Assembly: GCA_016183815.1 (NCBI GenBank)
Contig: JACPDW010000020.1
Location: forward strand, 1 to 64,000
DNA from: Flavobacteriia bacterium
Lineage (GTDB): Bacteria; Bacteroidota; Bacteroidia; Flavobacteriales_D; Crocinitomicaceae
Direction: 5' to 3'
Length of the DNA: 64,000 bases
Shown here: in pieces, positions 2,796 through 16,567 of the stretch
Numbering within the stretch: the stretch's first letter is position 1
Layout: every line of letters starts with the position of its first letter
Position numbers and translations under genes: made by a program
The notes under the pieces: generated by a model
Told to the model about the DNA's origin: nothing
Databases searched by the model: none
The model's input: only the letters and a program-made list of their open reading frames with translations

Positions 2796-4006
2796 CATTT
2801 ATTTAAAATGATTGTTTCACTGATTTTTAATGCTTCTTCAAGTGTGATTTGTTCACCTTTATTATAAGCTATGACAACAAAATCATTTAATCCTTTTGCT
2901 TTCAAATCTGCAACTACTGAATCCACTTGTTCTTTTTTAAGAAACATTCCGTAGGAATACCTAATATTTCCATTTGTCAAATCTTTATAAATTAAATCTC
3001 TTTTTAGTAAAAGTTTACCAAAAGTGATGTCTTTATTATAAGTCCCGATTTGTATAGTATAAAAAAATCCATTGACAGAGCTTAAATTTATTGGATTGTA
3101 AGTCTGATAATGAATAACTTTAGTTAGTGAAGAATCGGGAATAAAATAATAGGAAAAAGTGTCTTTATTTACAAGTAATTTACTATCAATGTTGGCGTTA
3201 TAGACAAATTTCATAGTGTCAGAATATTTTATCAATTCTTTGATTATGTACTTATTTTTTTGATCTTCACTTTTTAAAAGAGGAGTTATATTTTTATTTT
3301 GATTGGCCAAATTATTTTCGTTTATTCGAATTTTGTTTTTTGTTTCATTTTGAATAACAATTAAATAGTTGTAATTTAATTTATCATTAGTGTTCCAAAA
3401 ATCCCTTCCTTTTTTCTCTAATTGATCAATTCTTAATGAACATTTGCCTAAAAGTTTATTGTCCATTTCAATTAGTTTTTGATAATTTTTAATATTATTA
3501 TCTATTGTAGAATTAGTTAAATTGATGAAATTTTTATAGTAATCAGGGTCAATGTCCAAAATAATATTTTTTTTGTTGATGTAGTTTCTAATTTCTTCTA
3601 TTTCTTCACATTTTTCTAAATATTGTTGCAAAGATTGGATTTTAAATTTTAAAGCATTTTTTAACTTATTTAATTCAATTTTATTCTGATTTGAAATACT
3701 ATCATTAATTGAGTCGAGAATATACATTTTTTTTGAAATATCAAACTTAACATATTTATCCAAATTTTGCATATAAAAATATTTCTCATACAAATTGATG
3801 TCGATATTTTCACTTAAAGAAACGCATAGGTTGATATAATTAGGGTCAATATTGCGTAAAAGATTTTTATATGGGATAATTTTGCTAATTTGATCGATTT
3901 CAATTTTTTGACACATACAACATAAAGAGTCAGGGTTTGAATTTTGTGCATAAGTCAATTGAGACAATAAAAATAATAGTAAAATATGTATTTTTTTAAT
4001 TATCAT
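2795..4006 (-). CDS. Secreted protein with SPOR-like C-terminal domain
   Basis: A cleavable signal peptide is visible (hydrophobic LLLFLLSQLTYAQ, residues 9-21). The middle (about 40-270) is charged, Asn/Lys-rich and helical, and I do not recognise it. The C-terminal 90 residues (FFYTIQIGTYNKDITFGKLL, a second half with YGMFLKKEQVDSVVADLKAK, then FVVIAY) follow the SPOR-domain pattern. SPOR domains bind denuded peptidoglycan glycans. Bacteroidota often carry such 'YTVQIG' domains on cell-surface or gliding-related proteins. The cellular role is inferred only from that domain. Confidence 0.6.
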   Translation of the reverse strand: MIIKKIHILLLFLLSQLTYAQNSNPDSLCCMCQKIEIDQISKIIPYKNLLRNIDPNYINLCVSLSENIDINLYEKYFYMQNLDKYVKFDISKKMYILDSINDSISNQNKIELNKLKNALKFKIQSLQQYLEKCEEIEEIRNYINKKNIILDIDPDYYKNFINLTNSTIDNNIKNYQKLIEMDNKLLGKCSLRIDQLEKKGRDFWNTNDKLNYNYLIVIQNETKNKIRINENNLANQNKNITPLLKSEDQKNKYIIKELIKYSDTMKFVYNANIDSKLLVNKDTFSYYFIPDSSLTKVIHYQTYNPINLSSVNGFFYTIQIGTYNKDITFGKLLLKRDLIYKDLTNGNIRYSYGMFLKKEQVDSVVADLKAKGLNDFVVIAYNKGEQITLEEALKISETIILNK

Positions 4007-4204
4007 AGGTCGATTTCACCGATAAAGATAATAATATTAGTTGATTATACAATATTTTTTATAAGTTTTTTAACTATCGATTTTATTAAATACTAATTAA
4101 TCTAATTATTTTGCTTTGGAAATAAACAAAGAAATTTTAAATACTTTAGGAATTTAAAAGTAATAGAAACAAAAAATTAATAAAACTTCCACTCAAAAAA
4201 GTAT

Positions 4205-7200
4205 CTATCTTTTAATCCAAGAATAAGTTTGTGTTTTTCCTTCAATAATAATTTCAATATTATATACTCCAGAACTCCAGTCATTCGTTTGAATTACTAA
4301 ATTGTTAGTATTTTTTATAGTCTGTATTTGTAACACTTTACCGACTGATGAAACCAATTTAATAGAAGCTTCATTTATTATTTCATGAAAAGAAAAATTT
4401 ATCATATCATTTCCAGGATTCGGGTAAATTTTTAATACTTCAATTGAATTATCACAAAAACCACTTAATAAGTCTAATCCATCACAATCTTCATCAATTC
4501 CATTATTTGGAATCTCACCAGCGTCTGGATTAATTGCTGAATTATTATCATTGCAATCAGTATTATTGATGGAGTATCCAGTTCCTGGATTTGAACAAAA
4601 TTCAGTACCAATTCCAGCTCCAAAATTATCGTTATCTGAATCAACAAAATAAGTTGTTAAACTTAATCCCTCATCGATGTTCCCATCACAGTTGTTGTCA
4701 ATGCCATCGCAGATTTCTGCTGCTAAAGGATTAATTGCTGAATTATTATCATTGCAATCAGTATAATTGATGGAGTATCCAGTTCCTGGGTTTGAACAAT
4801 AATCAGTACCAATTCCAGCTCCAAAATTATCGTTATCTGAATCAACAAAATAAGTTGTTAAACTTAATCCCTCATCGATGTTCCCATCACAGTTGTTGTC
4901 AATACCATCGCAGATTTCTGTTGCTAAAGGATTAATTGCTGAATTATTATTATTGCAATCAGTATTATTGATTGAGTATCCAGTTCCTGGATTTGAACAA
5001 AAATCAGTACCAATTCCAGCTCCAAAATTATCGTTATCTGAATCAACAAAATAAGTTGTTAGACTTAATCCCTCATCGATGTTTCCATCGCAGTTGTTGT
5101 CAATACCATCGCAGATTTCTGTTGCTAAAGGATTAATTGCTGAATTATTATCATTGCAATCAGTATTATTGATGGAGTATCCAGTTCCTGGATTTGAACA
5201 AAATTCAGTACCAATTCCAGCTCCAAAATTATCGTTATCTAAATCAGCGTAATAAGTTGTCATTGTTAAACCTTCATCAATATTTCCGTCACAATTGTTA
5301 TCTTTTCCATCACAAATCTCTATGGCTCCTGGATATTTTAAACTATCCAAATCGTCACAGTCACTGTAGTCAAGAGTAAAATAGAGACCTGGATTGTTAC
5401 ATGATACTTCAATCGCAACAGTAAAAGGATCACCAAAGCCATCTAAATCAATATCCCAATAATAAGTATTAAAAATTAAACCTTCATCGTCATTTCCATC
5501 ACAGTTGTTGTCAATATTATCACATATTTCTGGCGCACCAGGATAAACGCTCGAATTATTATCATCACAATCAATATTACTCAGATATCCATCACCATCA
5601 TTGTCAAAAATCGTAATATAGTCACTTCCATCGCAATCTTCATCCGTTCCATTATCGGCGATTTCTGTTGCTCCGGGGTAGATTGAGGGATTATTGTCAT
5701 CACAGTCGGAATTATCAATTGAAAAGCCAATACCTGGATTTAAACAATAATCTGCTCCTGTTCCTGTACCAAAATTATCGTTATCCACATCAGCGTAATA
5801 AGTCGTCATTATTAATCCCTCATCAATATTACCGTCGCAATTATTATCTATTCCATCACAAACTTCACCTATTCCTGGATTAATTGTAGCATTATTATCA
5901 TTACAATCTACTGTATTATCAAATCCATCGCTATCATTATCTAAAATGGCTGTCTCATCTGATCCATTACAATCTTCATCTATGCTATTATTTGGAATAT
6001 CAGTTTCTGCAGGATTAATGGCTCCATTTGTATCGTCGCAATCATCATTATTTACAGAATAACCAAAACCTGGATTATTACAAAAATCAGAGCCATTACT
6101 AGTACCATAACCATCGTTATCTACATCAGCGTAATAGGTAGTCATTGTTAATCCTTCATCAATATTTCCATCACAGTTGTTGTCAATCCCATCACAAATT
6201 TCTGAAGCACTTGGATATGCTGAGGAATTATTATCATCACAATCTGTATTGTCAAAAACAAATCCAAGACCTGGATTATTACAAAAATCAGAGCCATTAC
6301 TAGTACCATAACCATCGTTATCTACATCAGCGTAATAGGTAGTCATTGTTAATCCATCATCAATATTCCCATCACAGTTGTTGTCAATCCCATCACAAAT
6401 TTCTGAAGCACCAGGATATATAATTGAATTATTGTCGTCACAATCAATGTTACTATCAGAACCATCTCCATCGTTATCAATAATAAAATCACTACCATTA
6501 CAATCCTCATCTATTCCATTATTTGGAATCTCCAAAGCATTTGGGTTAACAAGCCAATTATTATCATCACAATCCAAATTATTATCAACATGTTCATAAT
6601 AGGGATAAGGAGCATAACAGTCCCATACACCAGTGTCATTCACGTTTCCGTAACCATCTTCATCCCAGTCAAAATACCAATATCTGAACAAACCTTCATC
6701 GATGTTTCCATCACAGTTGTTATCTATATCATCACAAATTTCCGTTGCCCCTGGATAAATAGTAGATTTTGTATCATCGCAGTCAGTATTGTTAGTTACA
6801 AAACTACCTGTAGGAACGTTACAATACGAAAATCCTATTGCACTTCCAAATCCATCGCCATCATTATCTGGATAATATAAGGTCATTGTTAATCCCTCAT
6901 CAATATTCCCATCACAGTTATTATCGATGCCATCACAAGTTTCTACCGCACTCGGGTGGATTGCGGCATTATTATCATCACAATCTATTGAATTATCAAA
7001 ACCATCTCCATCGTTATCTAAAACGGCAGTTTCATCAGATCCACTGCAATCCTCATCAATAGTATTGTTTGGGACATCAGTGGCTAGTGGATTAATTGCT
7101 GGATTATAATCATTACAATCATCATTATTTGTGACTGCATAATTGTCATATGTAATACAATAAAAACCATAAAAATAATTCCCAAAACCATCCAAATCCT

Positions 7201-13085: not shown

Positions 13086-15200
13086 ATGGAAAAATTTGTG
13101 ATTAAAAGAAATGGAGAGTATAAACCTTTGGAATGGTATAAAATTGAGCAGGCAATAAACAAAGGTTTTGAAAGTGTAGGCAAGGAATTGGAATCACAAA
13201 TTATTGAGACTATTTATAATAAGTTAACTGAAAAAGATGTTTGGTCTGTCGAAGAAATTCAAGATAAAATCGAGGAAGTTCTGTTTGAAAAAGGTCACTT
13301 TGACGTAATGAAATCTTTTATGCTTTATCGCCATACTAGAAAATTACAACGTCAAAATGAAACAGGCATTTCAAATGAAACTACTTATGTGGACAGTAGT
13401 CAAACTATTGAAGAATATATAAACAAATCCGATTGGAGAATCAACGCCAATGCCAATACTTCTTACTCAAATGCTGGCTTAGTAAACAATGTGGCGGGTA
13501 AAATAATTGCCAATTATTGGTTAGACAAAGTGTATAACAAGGAAGAAGGATATGCACATAGAAATGGCGATATTCATATCCACGATTTAGATTGTTTAAC
13601 TGGCTATTGTGCTGGTTGGAGTTTAAGAGTTTTATTAAACGATGGATTTAACGGTGTAAGAGGGAGAGTAGAAAGTAAACCACCAAATCATTTTCGTGAA
13701 GCATTAGGTCAAATGGCTAACTTTTTAGGAATTCTACAAAGTGAATGGGCTGGTGCTCAAGCGTTCAGTTCTTTTGATACTTATTTGGCACCTTATGTTT
13801 TTAAAGATGAATTAAGCTACGACGAAGTATTAAAAGCCATTAGAAGTTTTGTTTATAATTTAAATGTTCCTGCTCGATGGGGTCAATCTCCTTTTACAAA
13901 TATTACTTTAGATTGGGTTCCTCCTTCCGATTTACGTGAGCAAATGCCAACCAAAAACAACGAACATTTATTTAAAAATATCACAAAAGAAAGTCTTGTA
14001 GCAAAAATTAAAGATAGAGGAGTTGAACAGTTAGAAGATTTGAAATACGCTCATTTTCAAGAAGAAATGAATATGATTAACAAGGCGTATTATACTGTTA
14101 TGACAGAAGGGGATTCAAACGGTCAACCTTTTACTTTCCCAATTCCAACAGTAAATATCACAGAAGATTTTGATTGGTACGGCGAAAACACAGACATTCT
14201 TTTTGAAAATACTGCTAAAATTGGATCCTCATATTTCCAAAATTTTATTGGAAGTCAATTTATTTATGATGACAATGGTCAAAAAGTTGAAAATCCTGAG
14301 GCCTACAAACCAAATGCTGTTCGAAGTATGTGTTGCAGACTTCAACTTGATTTAAGAGAATTACTGAAAAGAGGAAATGGATTGTTTGGTAGTGCAGAGA
14401 TGACGGGAAGTATCGGTGTAGTAACAATCAATATGGCTAGATTAGGATTTATCTATAAAGGAAATAAAAAAGAATTGTACGAAAGATTGGATTATCTATT
14501 AGAAATTTCTAGAACATCTCTTGAGAAAAAAAGAGTGTTTATTCAAGAAATGTATGATAGAGGATTATATCCTTACACCAAACGTTATTTACCTCATTTT
14601 AGAAATCATTTTTCAACGATTGGAGTGAATGGAATAAATGAAATGATTAGAAATTTTTCTGAAGATAAAGACAACATTACTAGTGCAAGTGGGATTGAAT
14701 TTGCCAATGAAATTTTAGATTATATCAGAAAAAAAATGCAACAATTTCAAGAAGAAACAGGAAATCTGTATAACCTTGAAGCAACACCTGCTGAAGGAAC
14801 TACTTATCGTTTTGCGAAAGAGGATAAAAAACGATTTGAACAAATCAAACAAGCTGGTTTTGAAGATAATGTTTATTACACCAATAGTTCTCAAATTCCT
14901 GTTAATCACACAGAAGATCCATTTGAAGCCCTTTATCTTCAAGATGAATTACAATGTAAATATACAGGTGGAACAGTACTACACTTATATATGGGTGAAA
15001 AAATCAGTTCGGCTGAGGCATGTAGAAGTTTAGTTAAAAAGGTGATTTCAAATTTCAGATTACCTTATATTACTGTAACACCAGTGTTTAGTATTTGTCC
15101 AAAACACGGATATCTATCTGGTGAATTTGAATATTGTCCAAAATGCGATAATGAATTAATTAATAATGTTAAAAACGAATCATATGAATACAAGCGTTAA
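13086..15200 (+). CDS. nrdD: Anaerobic ribonucleoside-triphosphate reductase, large part lacking the glycyl-radical tail
   Basis: Class III RNR reduces ribonucleoside triphosphates to dNTPs without oxygen. Domains in order: N-terminal ATP-cone (about 1-95; FVIKRNGEYKPLEWYKIEQA), then the ten-stranded barrel with the active-site cysteines Cys416/Cys417 (RSMCCRLQLD) and GSIGVVTINM, then a zinc-type cluster CPKHG...CPKC (Cys671, His674, Cys684, Cys687). The frame stops 17 residues after that cluster. The glycyl-radical motif that every NrdD needs is absent here and is found in the next, overlapping +1 frame (15184-15360). The two pieces together have the usual NrdD length. Confidence 0.9.
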   Translation: MEKFVIKRNGEYKPLEWYKIEQAINKGFESVGKELESQIIETIYNKLTEKDVWSVEEIQDKIEEVLFEKGHFDVMKSFMLYRHTRKLQRQNETGISNETTYVDSSQTIEEYINKSDWRINANANTSYSNAGLVNNVAGKIIANYWLDKVYNKEEGYAHRNGDIHIHDLDCLTGYCAGWSLRVLLNDGFNGVRGRVESKPPNHFREALGQMANFLGILQSEWAGAQAFSSFDTYLAPYVFKDELSYDEVLKAIRSFVYNLNVPARWGQSPFTNITLDWVPPSDLREQMPTKNNEHLFKNITKESLVAKIKDRGVEQLEDLKYAHFQEEMNMINKAYYTVMTEGDSNGQPFTFPIPTVNITEDFDWYGENTDILFENTAKIGSSYFQNFIGSQFIYDDNGQKVENPEAYKPNAVRSMCCRLQLDLRELLKRGNGLFGSAEMTGSIGVVTINMARLGFIYKGNKKELYERLDYLLEISRTSLEKKRVFIQEMYDRGLYPYTKRYLPHFRNHFSTIGVNGINEMIRNFSEDKDNITSASGIEFANEILDYIRKKMQQFQEETGNLYNLEATPAEGTTYRFAKEDKKRFEQIKQAGFEDNVYYTNSSQIPVNHTEDPFEALYLQDELQCKYTGGTVLHLYMGEKISSAEACRSLVKKVISNFRLPYITVTPVFSICPKHGYLSGEFEYCPKCDNELINNVKNESYEYKR

Positions 15201-15360
15201 ATTAAAAGAAGTTGATGTTTTAAAACAAATCAACGAAAAAAGAACCAAATGTCTAGTTTACACTAGAGTAATGGGTTATCACCGCCCTGTTGAAAGTTTT
15301 AACATCGGAAAAAAAGGTGAACACAAAGAGCGTTTACATTTTATTGAAAAATGTGCTTAG
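15184..15360 (+). CDS. Separate glycyl-radical C-terminal segment of NrdD
   Basis: A 58-residue frame overlapping the end of nrdD by 17 bp and nrdG by 10 bp. It encodes VYTRVMGYHRPVESFN followed by IGKKGEHKER, the conserved glycyl-radical tail of NrdD. The radical-bearing glycine is Gly31 (codon 15274-15276). An ATG at 15184 gives a neat start, which allows a true separate polypeptide made by translational coupling, analogous in idea to the 'spare part' proteins GrcA (YfiD) for pyruvate formate-lyase. The alternative is a one-base indel (real or sequencing) in a single gene. Sequence alone cannot decide. Confidence 0.7.
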   Translation: MNTSVKLKEVDVLKQINEKRTKCLVYTRVMGYHRPVESFNIGKKGEHKERLHFIEKCA

Positions 15361-16034
15361 AAAAAGCTATTGAAAGTATAAGTCCCTTTAGTTTATTAGA
15401 TTATCCTGATTTAACTTCCTGCATTGTATGGTTTAAAGGTTGTAATATGCGTTGTTCGTATTGTTACAACCCTGAAATCATTTTTGGTGAAGGGAAATAT
15501 ACTTTTGATGATGTTTATCGTTTTCTTAAAACCCGAATAAATTTGTTAGATGGTGTTGTTTTAAGTGGTGGTGAATGTACAATGAATAAAAATATTGTCG
15601 ATTTTACTCGCCACATAAAAGAAATGGGTTTTAAAGTAAAATTAGACACCAATGGAACTTACCCAGATCGAATCAAACAAATGTTAGATGAAAATTTATT
15701 AGATTTTGTTGCTCTTGATTTTAAAGCACTTGATTATAATTTCCAATTTATCACCAAAACAAAAACATTTGATTTGTTTAAAAAAAGTTTAGATTATTTG
15801 TCTGAAAGTAATATCCCTTACGAAATTAGAACAACTTATCACGAAGATTTACTTTCTTTTCATGATTTGTATAATATGATTGATTTTTTAAAGGAAAATC
15901 AATATAAAGGAAATTACTTTATTCAAAATTTTAGGAATGACACCCCCTCTTTAGATAAACTTCCTAATAGCAATAAATTACCTCTAACTCAATTGCCAAA
16001 AGATAAAATTCCCATTTTTGTTCGAAATGATTAA
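15351..16034 (+). CDS. nrdG: Anaerobic RNR activating radical-SAM enzyme
   Basis: A radical-SAM activase that abstracts hydrogen from the NrdD glycine. The CNMRCSYC motif (CxxxCxxC; about residues 31-38) binds the 4Fe-4S cluster, and VVLSGGECT is the GGE motif for SAM. At 227 residues it is of the longer 'NrdG2/YjjW-like' anaerobic RNR activating type. Its start overlaps the glycyl-radical frame by 10 bp, so nrdD, tail and activase are co-transcribed and probably translationally coupled. Confidence 0.88.
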   Translation: MCLEKAIESISPFSLLDYPDLTSCIVWFKGCNMRCSYCYNPEIIFGEGKYTFDDVYRFLKTRINLLDGVVLSGGECTMNKNIVDFTRHIKEMGFKVKLDTNGTYPDRIKQMLDENLLDFVALDFKALDYNFQFITKTKTFDLFKKSLDYLSESNIPYEIRTTYHEDLLSFHDLYNMIDFLKENQYKGNYFIQNFRNDTPSLDKLPNSNKLPLTQLPKDKIPIFVRND

Positions 16035-16129
16035 TCAAAAAAAAATTCCTTAGAATTTTATTAAATGGAATATTCAAACAAAAAAAAGTATTACATACCT
16101 AAATTTTAAGTAATCGATTTTTGAATTTT

Positions 16130-16567
16130 ATGAATAATACCGTTTATTTTTACTTTATATTTACATTGATTTCTTGTAAACAAAACAATAATAAAATCCC
16201 TATTTTAACTTACGATGTAAACTTAGGTAAAGGTCATTTTAAACAAATAAATTTTAATCCCAATGATTCATTATTGACGAAAAAAGGAGAAAAACTTTTC
16301 ATAAAAAGTTGCGTTCCTTGTCATGCTTACAACACTAAACATTCAAATGGACCCTCTTGGGAAGGTATAACAGAACGATTTCATCCAGTGTGGATATTAA
16401 ATTTCATGACTAATACTGAAGAAATGCTTAACTTTGACCCCTATTTACAAAAACAAATAAAACAATACAAGCTAAAAATGCCTTCATTTAATTTAGACAC
16501 AAACGATGCAAAGGCACTCTATAGTTTCATGTATTTAAAAGACAATACTCTTTATGGAAAAAATTAG
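16130..16567 (+). CDS. Lipoprotein-anchored c-type cytochrome
   Basis: The frame extends to a TTG at 16121, but ATG 16130 is preferred. A short signal ends in a lipobox LISC (Cys16), giving a membrane-anchored periplasmic protein. The single haem site is CVPCH (61-65), with a C-terminal LKMPSF segment whose Met is the likely axial ligand. It is a class I mono-haem cytochrome that would pass electrons in the periplasm. It overlaps queD by 14 bp. Its redox partner is unknown. Confidence 0.75.
   Translation: MNNTVYFYFIFTLISCKQNNNKIPILTYDVNLGKGHFKQINFNPNDSLLTKKGEKLFIKSCVPCHAYNTKHSNGPSWEGITERFHPVWILNFMTNTEEMLNFDPYLQKQIKQYKLKMPSFNLDTNDAKALYSFMYLKDNTLYGKN

Follow-up and report, generated by a model that had tools for sequence, protein, structure and literature searches.

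The window analysed here is a stretch of 64,000 nucleotides from a Flavobacteriia bacterium (positions 1 to 64,000 of contig JACPDW010000020.1, assembly GCA_016183815.1). It contains a class III ribonucleotide reductase (RNR) gene, nrdD, that ends 17 residues past its zinc cluster without a glycyl-radical motif. The motif lies instead in the +1 frame, in a short open reading frame (ORF) with its own ATG, placed between nrdD and the gene for the radical S-adenosylmethionine (SAM) activase, nrdG (Table 1). Below, the two frames are called the core and the tail. The tail ORF from ATG 15184, which contains KRTKCLVYTRVMGYHRPVESFNIGKKGEHKER, shares 17 bp with nrdD and 10 bp with nrdG. This layout had been described beforehand from the letters alone (the sequence-only reading), and the coordinates, overlaps, frame and glycine codon given there were all correct to the base. 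The in-frame ATG further upstream is the less likely start, because many related Bacteroidota tails begin with MNT, MQT or MKT in register with ATG 15184.

Table 1. Features of the nrdD-nrdG locus (window coordinates)
Feature	Position	Strand	Remarks
nrdD core	13086..15200	+	704 aa; ATP-cone, ten-stranded-barrel domain, zinc cluster; without glycyl-radical motif
Finger-loop MCCR, expected thiyl-radical cysteine	14328..14339	+	read from sequence
Zinc-cluster ligands CxxH...CxxC at core end, then 17-residue extension	15096..15146	+	read from sequence
Possible upstream start of tail (in-frame ATG 15166)	15166..15183	+	64 aa; less likely
Tail, predicted glycyl-radical subunit, own ATG	15184..15360	+	58 aa; +1 frame relative to nrdD; PF13597 531-562
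Radical-glycine codon GGT in TRVMGYHRPV	15274..15276	+	assigned by homology to NrdD glycyl motif
nrdG2, radical-SAM activase	15351..16034	+	TIGR02495 above cut-off

Core and tail divide a single NrdD family between them

The Pfam family NRDD (PF13597, 562 positions) is distributed over both frames. The core ORF covers positions 2-530 (E = 5e-164), and the tail ORF, scanned from ATG 15166, covers positions 531-562 (E = 9e-7; 28.4 bits against a cut-off of 26.2). Thus the whole family is recovered without overlap from the two frames together, which is more than chance would be expected to give. A complete NRDD domain, from barrel to glycyl loop, is found in core and tail jointly and not in the core alone. 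The core also matched the ATP-cone (PF03477) and, above cut-off, the NCBIfam models PRK08270 and TIGR02487, and its MCCR corresponds to the double-cysteine finger-loop motif reported for class III RNRs (PMC9669993). The activase that marks a class III RNR is adjacent, with NrdG matching TIGR02495 above cut-off. When the tail was scanned against Pfam up to E = 1, NRDD was the only match and no glycine radical domain of the pyruvate formate-lyase (PFL) type was detected. At E 0.01 the tail profile had no match among solved chains; the fused relative L030 (see below) matched the solved chains 8p23, 4coi, 4u3e, 9d3x and 1h78.

The genome to which the window belongs (44 contigs, 3.24 Mb) contains one core and one tail, with no other NRDD match and no intact NrdD; in this six-frame search the tail scored 25.4 bits, just below the cut-off of 26.2. 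Glycyl motif and barrel therefore occur here in separate frames only and not in the same chain, so that the enzyme is filed as a two-chain variant of class III. The small subunit of a class I RNR is encoded in the same genome.

The split is conserved among relatives

Relatives were gathered by a core scan with one genome per species. Of the 236 relatives returned, the 80 best make up the set used here: 50 belong to Bacteroidota and 30 to Campylobacterota, the latter including L071, which is titled only 'bacterium' and was placed by the tree described below. The sequence-only reading had proposed comparing NrdD of relatives for the same break, and the break is indeed shared: in 78 of the 80 loci the core ends past the zinc cluster and the glycyl-radical motif has an ORF of its own, and only two Chitinophaga-like loci (L030 and L052) are fused. 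The tail lies within 900 bp of the core in 76/80 loci, and its first ATG is 1412 bp away in L011 and 835 bp away in L080. With the window included, the frame relation between core and tail takes all three phases (56, 16 and 7 of 79 loci), and the first tail ATG is located anywhere from 89 bp before the core end to 1412 bp after it. Of the 80 genomes, 49 were searched whole, and each of these has exactly one tail (47 separate, 2 fused).

Broader samples were also surveyed. Within the class of the window, NrdD was detected in 15 of 295 genomes, seven split and eight with the glycyl segment in the same frame; all seven cores in this sample that end near profile position 530 are accompanied by a separate tail. 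A separate tail was found in 10 of 392 genomes sampled across the phylum. In a Campylobacterota sample, a tail of this type was present in 109/249 genomes, as a separate short frame in 106 and only in fused form in three. The split trait is widespread but patchy. The loci L018, L024 and L029 share an identical core-tail junction although they are filed under Indibacter, Cecembia and Lunatimonas (Cyclobacteriaceae); this perhaps reflects cross-contamination of assemblies or recent transfer, and these loci may not be independent.

The simplest alternative, kept open by the sequence-only reading, is a one-base indel, either an assembly error or a recent mutation, in what would otherwise be an ordinary nrdD of this genome. 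A tail in the +1 frame with a 17 bp overlap agrees with such an event, and a same-frame glycyl segment is common too (8 of the 15 NrdD genomes of the class sample). However, the same break recurs in 78/80 relatives, in three phases and with spacings of up to 1412 bp; selection on the tail is purifying, a ribosome-binding match precedes each of the 30 Campylobacterota tails, and the genes are unlinked in five genomes, as described below. An indel is thus so improbable that we have discarded it.

Translation signals and selection on the tail

A Shine-Dalgarno match of at least 5 nt precedes the ATG of 30/30 Campylobacterota tails, compared with 7% at random positions (same number of picks). Such a match was also seen at 48 of the 71 scorable viral tails described below, and in Cupriavidus metallidurans the sequence AGGAG stands just 5′ of the tail ATG. 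Pooled ratios of nonsynonymous to synonymous differences (pN/pS), taken only from pairs with pS below 0.7, were 0.096 for Bacteroidota tails (46 distinct stretches), 0.148 for Campylobacterota tails (30), 0.197 for extra host copies (9) and 0.33 for viral tails (63 distinct stretches); the Bacteroidota set comprises 50 sequences including the fused L030, and the viral set includes the core-bearing L109. The tail is under purifying selection.

The two frames might alternatively be joined into one ordinary NrdD chain by programmed frameshifting or stop readthrough. In line with this, the first tail ATG lies before the core end in 38 of 49 Bacteroidota loci, window included, and Bacteroidota tails are not preceded by a 5-nt Shine-Dalgarno match. 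Joining the frames would, however, take two different kinds of shift (in 56 and 16 of the 79 loci) plus readthrough in the other 7, and it does not account for the Shine-Dalgarno match at every Campylobacterota tail or for tails that lie up to 1412 bp off or at distant loci. We consider this very unlikely. A frameshift- or readthrough-encoded NrdD was rejected as a candidate class, since the frame relation is not constant and overlap or adjacency is not general (three phases, -89 to +1412 bp, five unlinked genomes). A split-intein NrdD was also rejected: Pfam and NCBIfam detected no intein domain in the window core or tail, and split cores extend only 10-32 residues past the last CxxC.

A further possibility is that the core is degenerate or repurposed and needs no glycyl radical, the tail being a relic. 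While the core alone does lack the motif, the loop is strictly conserved, pN/pS is low, the tail is retained together with nrdG, and nrdDG is reportedly required under anaerobic conditions in Cupriavidus necator H16 (see below). We give the relic explanation almost no credence.

Core and tail genes are unlinked in five genomes

In five Campylobacterota genomes (G611, G725, G743, G730 and G701), which form one clade in the core tree (support 98), the core is distant from the tail. In G611 they are located at 104 kb and 9 kb, respectively, of one 1.85-Mb contig and on opposite strands. The corresponding core and tail positions are 69 and 10 kb in G725, 185 and 63 kb in G743, 135 and 11 kb in G701, and 1.97 Mb and 10 kb in G730, where the distance is possibly shorter across the circular origin. 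Because the genes are unlinked, these five genomes cannot make a fused product by frameshifting. The activase gene remains beside the tail in G611, G743 and G725 (the three of these genomes that were looked at), and throughout the split loci nrdG starts at most 400 bp from the tail end in 77/78 cases, the remaining tail (L009) lying at a contig end. Since nrdG stays with the tail, it is the pair of tail and activase, and not that of core and tail, that is conserved as a unit, in agreement with an action of NrdG on the tail.

Taken together, the conserved split, the variable phases, the Shine-Dalgarno matches and the unlinked genes support a model in which the locus very probably encodes a class III RNR of two separately translated polypeptides, a 704-aa core and a 58-aa radical subunit. 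This part of the sequence-only reading is well supported.

Phylogeny and junctions of split and fused cores

A quick tree was built from cores. Of 112 extracted frames, 111 had at least 500 residues; from these, 14 were dropped (near-copies, a broken duplicate and second pieces of loci already included), which left 97 for the tree; the fused or split labels of L043, L087, L099 and L251 were set by eye. Deeper joins in this tree are unsure, and L099, L251, L087 and L232 sit on long branches. Split cores span Bacteroidota, Campylobacterota and Pseudomonadota. Refusion is suggested by the positions of the fused Chitinophaga pair, nested within split Bacteroidota, and of two fused Campylobacterota, which fall among split cores. 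At least six changes between fused and split are needed, four of them forced by well-supported branches, and several independent splits are not excluded.

Beyond the last CxxC, split cores continue for 10-32 residues (median 18, n = 79); tails have at least 8-23 residues before the R..C that opens their conserved part. In the fused L030, three residues lie between zinc cluster and glycyl segment (junction CPVCEDERQKCLVYTRVMGY); the fused L249 has a longer junction of about a dozen residues. Both partners of the split form therefore carry extra ends that are mostly missing from the fused relatives seen. In G754, two core-tail-nrdG operon copies (L222 and L223) occur in one genome, with one core broken into two frames. 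In G230, a 108-aa frame with a zinc cluster and a glycyl motif (about 94 aa as placed at L260:5812-6096, minus strand) stands directly before an nrdG-like gene, and the genome also has a full-length NrdD. This short frame was dropped as a candidate spare part, as its low identity to the full NrdD and its nrdG-like neighbour indicate that it is probably the remnant of a second nrdD.

Plasmid-borne and Pseudomonadota copies

Core, tail and nrdG are annotated together on plasmids of Cupriavidus necator H16, Bradyrhizobium japonicum S06B, Aquabacterium olei, Azospira sp., Shinella zoogloeoides, Sulfuricystis multivorans and the campylobacterotan Sulfuricurvum kujiense. C. metallidurans, Paracoccus denitrificans and Cereibacter azotoformans yielded split cores as well, and plasmid copies are fused in Acidiphilium, Actinomyces and Geoalkalibacter. 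NCBI annotation already calls the small protein nrdD. The nrdD of C. necator H16 on plasmid pHG1 is of the split form. In the genome paper of C. metallidurans, H16 is reported to need NrdDG in order to denitrify completely, and a strain free of pHG1 to be defective unless B12 is supplied (PMC2864759). With this reported need, the split nrdDG operon of H16 appears to be genetically functional.

Two further plasmid loci were observed. On a plasmid of B. japonicum S11L (L085:61-3403), an annotated IS3-like transposase interrupts the core, and tail and nrdG are intact. On plasmid pALVIN01 of Allochromatium vinosum (L247:3474-3683), a lone tail has a CHAP-domain gene as its neighbour; the 7.1 kb analysed there contain neither core nor nrdG.

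Lone tails on viral contigs and in host genomes

The sequence-only reading had also pointed to a search for other stand-alone tails, and these exist in number. Scanning IMG/VR with the tail alignment gave 131 stretches, and the viral tail results refer to the best 80 of these. The stop-to-stop frame is at most 101 aa long in 71 of the 80, and at least 2.4 kb of upstream sequence is present at 57. An NRDD core is absent from 79/80 viral records searched whole, L109 alone having one; two of the 79 gave weak partial NRDD matches (positions 503-529 at 15 bits and 521-544 at 9.8 bits) that are not cores. In L110 the tail is sub-threshold and the motif is visible. The lone viral tails correspond to PHROG family 4132, which has no assigned function. 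Their neighbours include holin, endolysin, tail tape-measure protein, major head protein and HNH endonucleases, and lone tails as a whole, extra host copies included, occur in several phage settings (lysis, transposition and tail regions). Near the endolysin that follows one lone tail (L106:5762-7469), an AAA_21 gene and an RloB-like gene form a possible defence pair.

Cores on viral contigs were sought with an exact-pattern scan, which misses divergent cores and gave four matches (L256, L257, L258 and L259, L257 being the contig of L109). In L256, core and tail are in one frame with two stops between them. The jumbo contigs L258 and L259 are identical over the 8.8 kb compared; the 196-kb contig L258 carries an ORF-interrupted tail about 110 kb from its core, and a search of the 160-kb contig L259 found no tail. 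Inspection by eye of the split-type core of L258 (positions 2959-5862, G780; 967 aa) revealed an apparent intein after GYC and before CAGW. In the tail gene of the 196-kb contig (L262:1784-2723), an insert of about 790 bp directly follows the radical-glycine codon; a 257-aa frame within it resembles a homing endonuclease by eye, and Rfam gave no credible intron match to it.

Extra copies also occur in hosts. Thirteen genomes of the Campylobacterota sample have two or three tail matches, several of the extras being partial. The places analysed number 20, in nine of these genomes (G611, G706, G734, G743, G754, G764, G740, G742 and G658), the extra copies of G623, G636, G647 and G686 being outside this set. 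Nine extra tails, spread over seven genomes, are lone ones: neither core nor nrdG is present in the surrounding stretch analysed, which in two cases is cut by a contig end. One extra tail (L212) lies beside holin and tail fibre genes, another (L227) beside Mu-type transposition genes, and in G658 (L230) the tail is in two pieces. The extra copies match the tail of their own host at 27-34 of the 36 conserved residues. In G740, the unusual GYLRP of the host tail recurs in the extra copy L227 and is absent from 59 other host tails. Lone tails on core-less viral contigs and lone extra tails in host genomes are new observations.

Surroundings of the locus

A gene with a CxxCH haem motif lies 3′ of nrdG in the window (16121-16567); on the Sulfuricurvum plasmid, an annotated c-type cytochrome likewise follows nrdG. 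FNR-like boxes with at most one mismatch occur in the window at chance level (25 found, 22 expected), with none just upstream of nrdD. Rfam gave no match between 12800 and 16200 at E 0.1.

A model for a replaceable radical subunit

Glycyl radical enzymes are inactivated when oxygen cuts the chain at the radical residue. In ordinary NrdD, the C-terminal loop is described as dipping into the barrel, where the radical glycine meets the finger loop, and as having to swing out again for NrdG (PMC4493059, PMC12662201). A loop that already moves in and out would be a natural place to cut the chain. In the proposed mechanism, the window tail (58 aa, RVMGYHRPVESFN loop) would dock non-covalently where the C-terminal loop of an ordinary NrdD enters the barrel. 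NrdG and S-adenosylmethionine would form the glycyl radical on the tail; the core, having received the radical at its finger-loop cysteine, would then reduce nucleoside triphosphates. Oxygen cleavage is reported to occur at the glycyl radical (PMC3019208); here it would cost the enzyme the small piece alone, and a new tail would make the core work again. Where the tail is carried by itself, as in phages and on at least one plasmid, it might serve as a spare part or extra stock for the host core. By analogy with YfiD, which is reported to be activated only when cleaved PFL is present (PMC8683613), activation of the tail may need the presence of the core. In this model, the docking in trans, the chemistry of the radical, the replacement of damaged tails and the advantage for phages are inferred.

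The model makes a joint claim: that a disposable radical subunit of 6-7 kDa is replaced after oxygen and carried alone by phages to keep the host core running, and that this arrangement occurs in bacteria of at least three phyla and in phages of several types. Judged from comparative sequence data, this claim has in our view an even chance of being right. The sequence-only reading had already likened the tail to an exchangeable part in the manner of GrcA/YfiD. The lone viral and host tails add support for exchangeability, although exchange itself is still inferred; the tail is an analogue of GrcA and does not belong to its family.

The main competitor is a fixed two-subunit enzyme, in which the tail is obligate and is not replaced after oxygen damage; the phage copies would then be passengers or serve another use, e.g. 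competing for NrdG. Several findings agree with it. Exactly one tail is present in the 47 split host genomes searched, co-assembly alone would explain why nrdG adjoins the tail, constraint is weaker on viral than on host tails (pN/pS 0.33 for the viral ones), and extra copies are mostly not the best match to their own host. On the other hand, the tail is the very part that oxygen is reported to destroy (PMC3019208), lone tails occur in several phage settings and are still under selection, and one of them shares the unusual variant of its host. A fixed enzyme is possible, if somewhat doubtful, and its probability overlaps with that given to our own interpretation.

A number of observations weigh against the interpretation of a separately made, exchangeable subunit. 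Among 59 close relatives, a separate tail is found in only two (the genome of the window and G404), with one more fused. Fused forms occur among split ones, so that the split is not indispensable. AlphaFold models were poor: the mean predicted local distance difference test (pLDDT) score was 59 for L018 read through its single stop, and 69 for a fused Chitinophaga protein, in which the tail reached about 30. A Shine-Dalgarno match of at least 5 nt was found at 0/49 Bacteroidota tails, which leaves initiation, including that of the window tail, unproven; Bacteroidota usually start genes without such a signal. Many of the viral records are fragments and some are near-copies of one another (63 distinct stretches in 80 records), and cultured-phage records gave no or only weak tail matches, some of them annotated as RNR large subunit. 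For all nine extra host copies, the best of 59 other hosts equals or beats the own host as a match.

Relation to known systems and significance

The class III NrdD/NrdG systems of T4, T. maritima, P. copri and S. thermophilus have the same ATP-cone, finger-loop cysteines, zinc cluster, glycyl loop and adjoining NrdG. In the solved class III enzymes, as far as their descriptions cover it, the glycyl loop is C-terminal in the same chain, whereas here it is on a separate polypeptide. YfiD/GrcA and T4 Y06I are likewise described as small duplicates of a radical C-terminus with an extra N-terminal part, encoded by a phage in the case of Y06I (PMC8683613). They differ in family and partner, which is pyruvate formate-lyase; the present tail matches NRDD only and its partner would be an RNR. 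Moreover, GrcA/YfiD repairs an enzyme that is complete except for its cleavage by oxygen, while the cores of the window and its split relatives are without the glycyl segment altogether, and the tail looks obligatory in the host. Phage nrdD genes in pieces have been attributed mostly to introns, inteins or homing endonucleases, or to causes that are unknown, in the parts of the account that concern them (PMC3653736). The split described here differs from these: it lies at one site across three phyla, and the window has no element of these kinds between core and tail.

The split class II RNR NrdJa/NrdJb of Pseudomonas aeruginosa is another RNR in two pieces. Its small piece is C-terminal but represents a different domain, and class II enzymes use B12 and no glycyl radical. 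In a search of the open-access literature, no description of a split class III NrdD of bacteria was recognised, the subscription literature being outside this search. The nrdD and nrdG genes of Alcaligenes eutrophus H16 are said to be the subject of a 1999 report, in which their reading frames may be described.

Only two spare-part proteins are stated to have been validated, both for pyruvate formate-lyase, and others may exist (Andorfer et al. 2021, PMC8683613). The present enzyme apparently takes the spare-part idea to its end point in an enzyme of DNA precursor synthesis, with the radical part as a gene of its own in host and phage. RNR surveys that apply length filters, such as the 400-1100 residues given in one description (PMC9531940), would drop the radical subunit, and genomes with a truncated-looking nrdD may in fact have a working class III RNR. 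Transfer of a glycyl radical in trans, turnover of the radical subunit under oxygen and the effect of phages on the anaerobic supply of deoxynucleotides thereby become testable.

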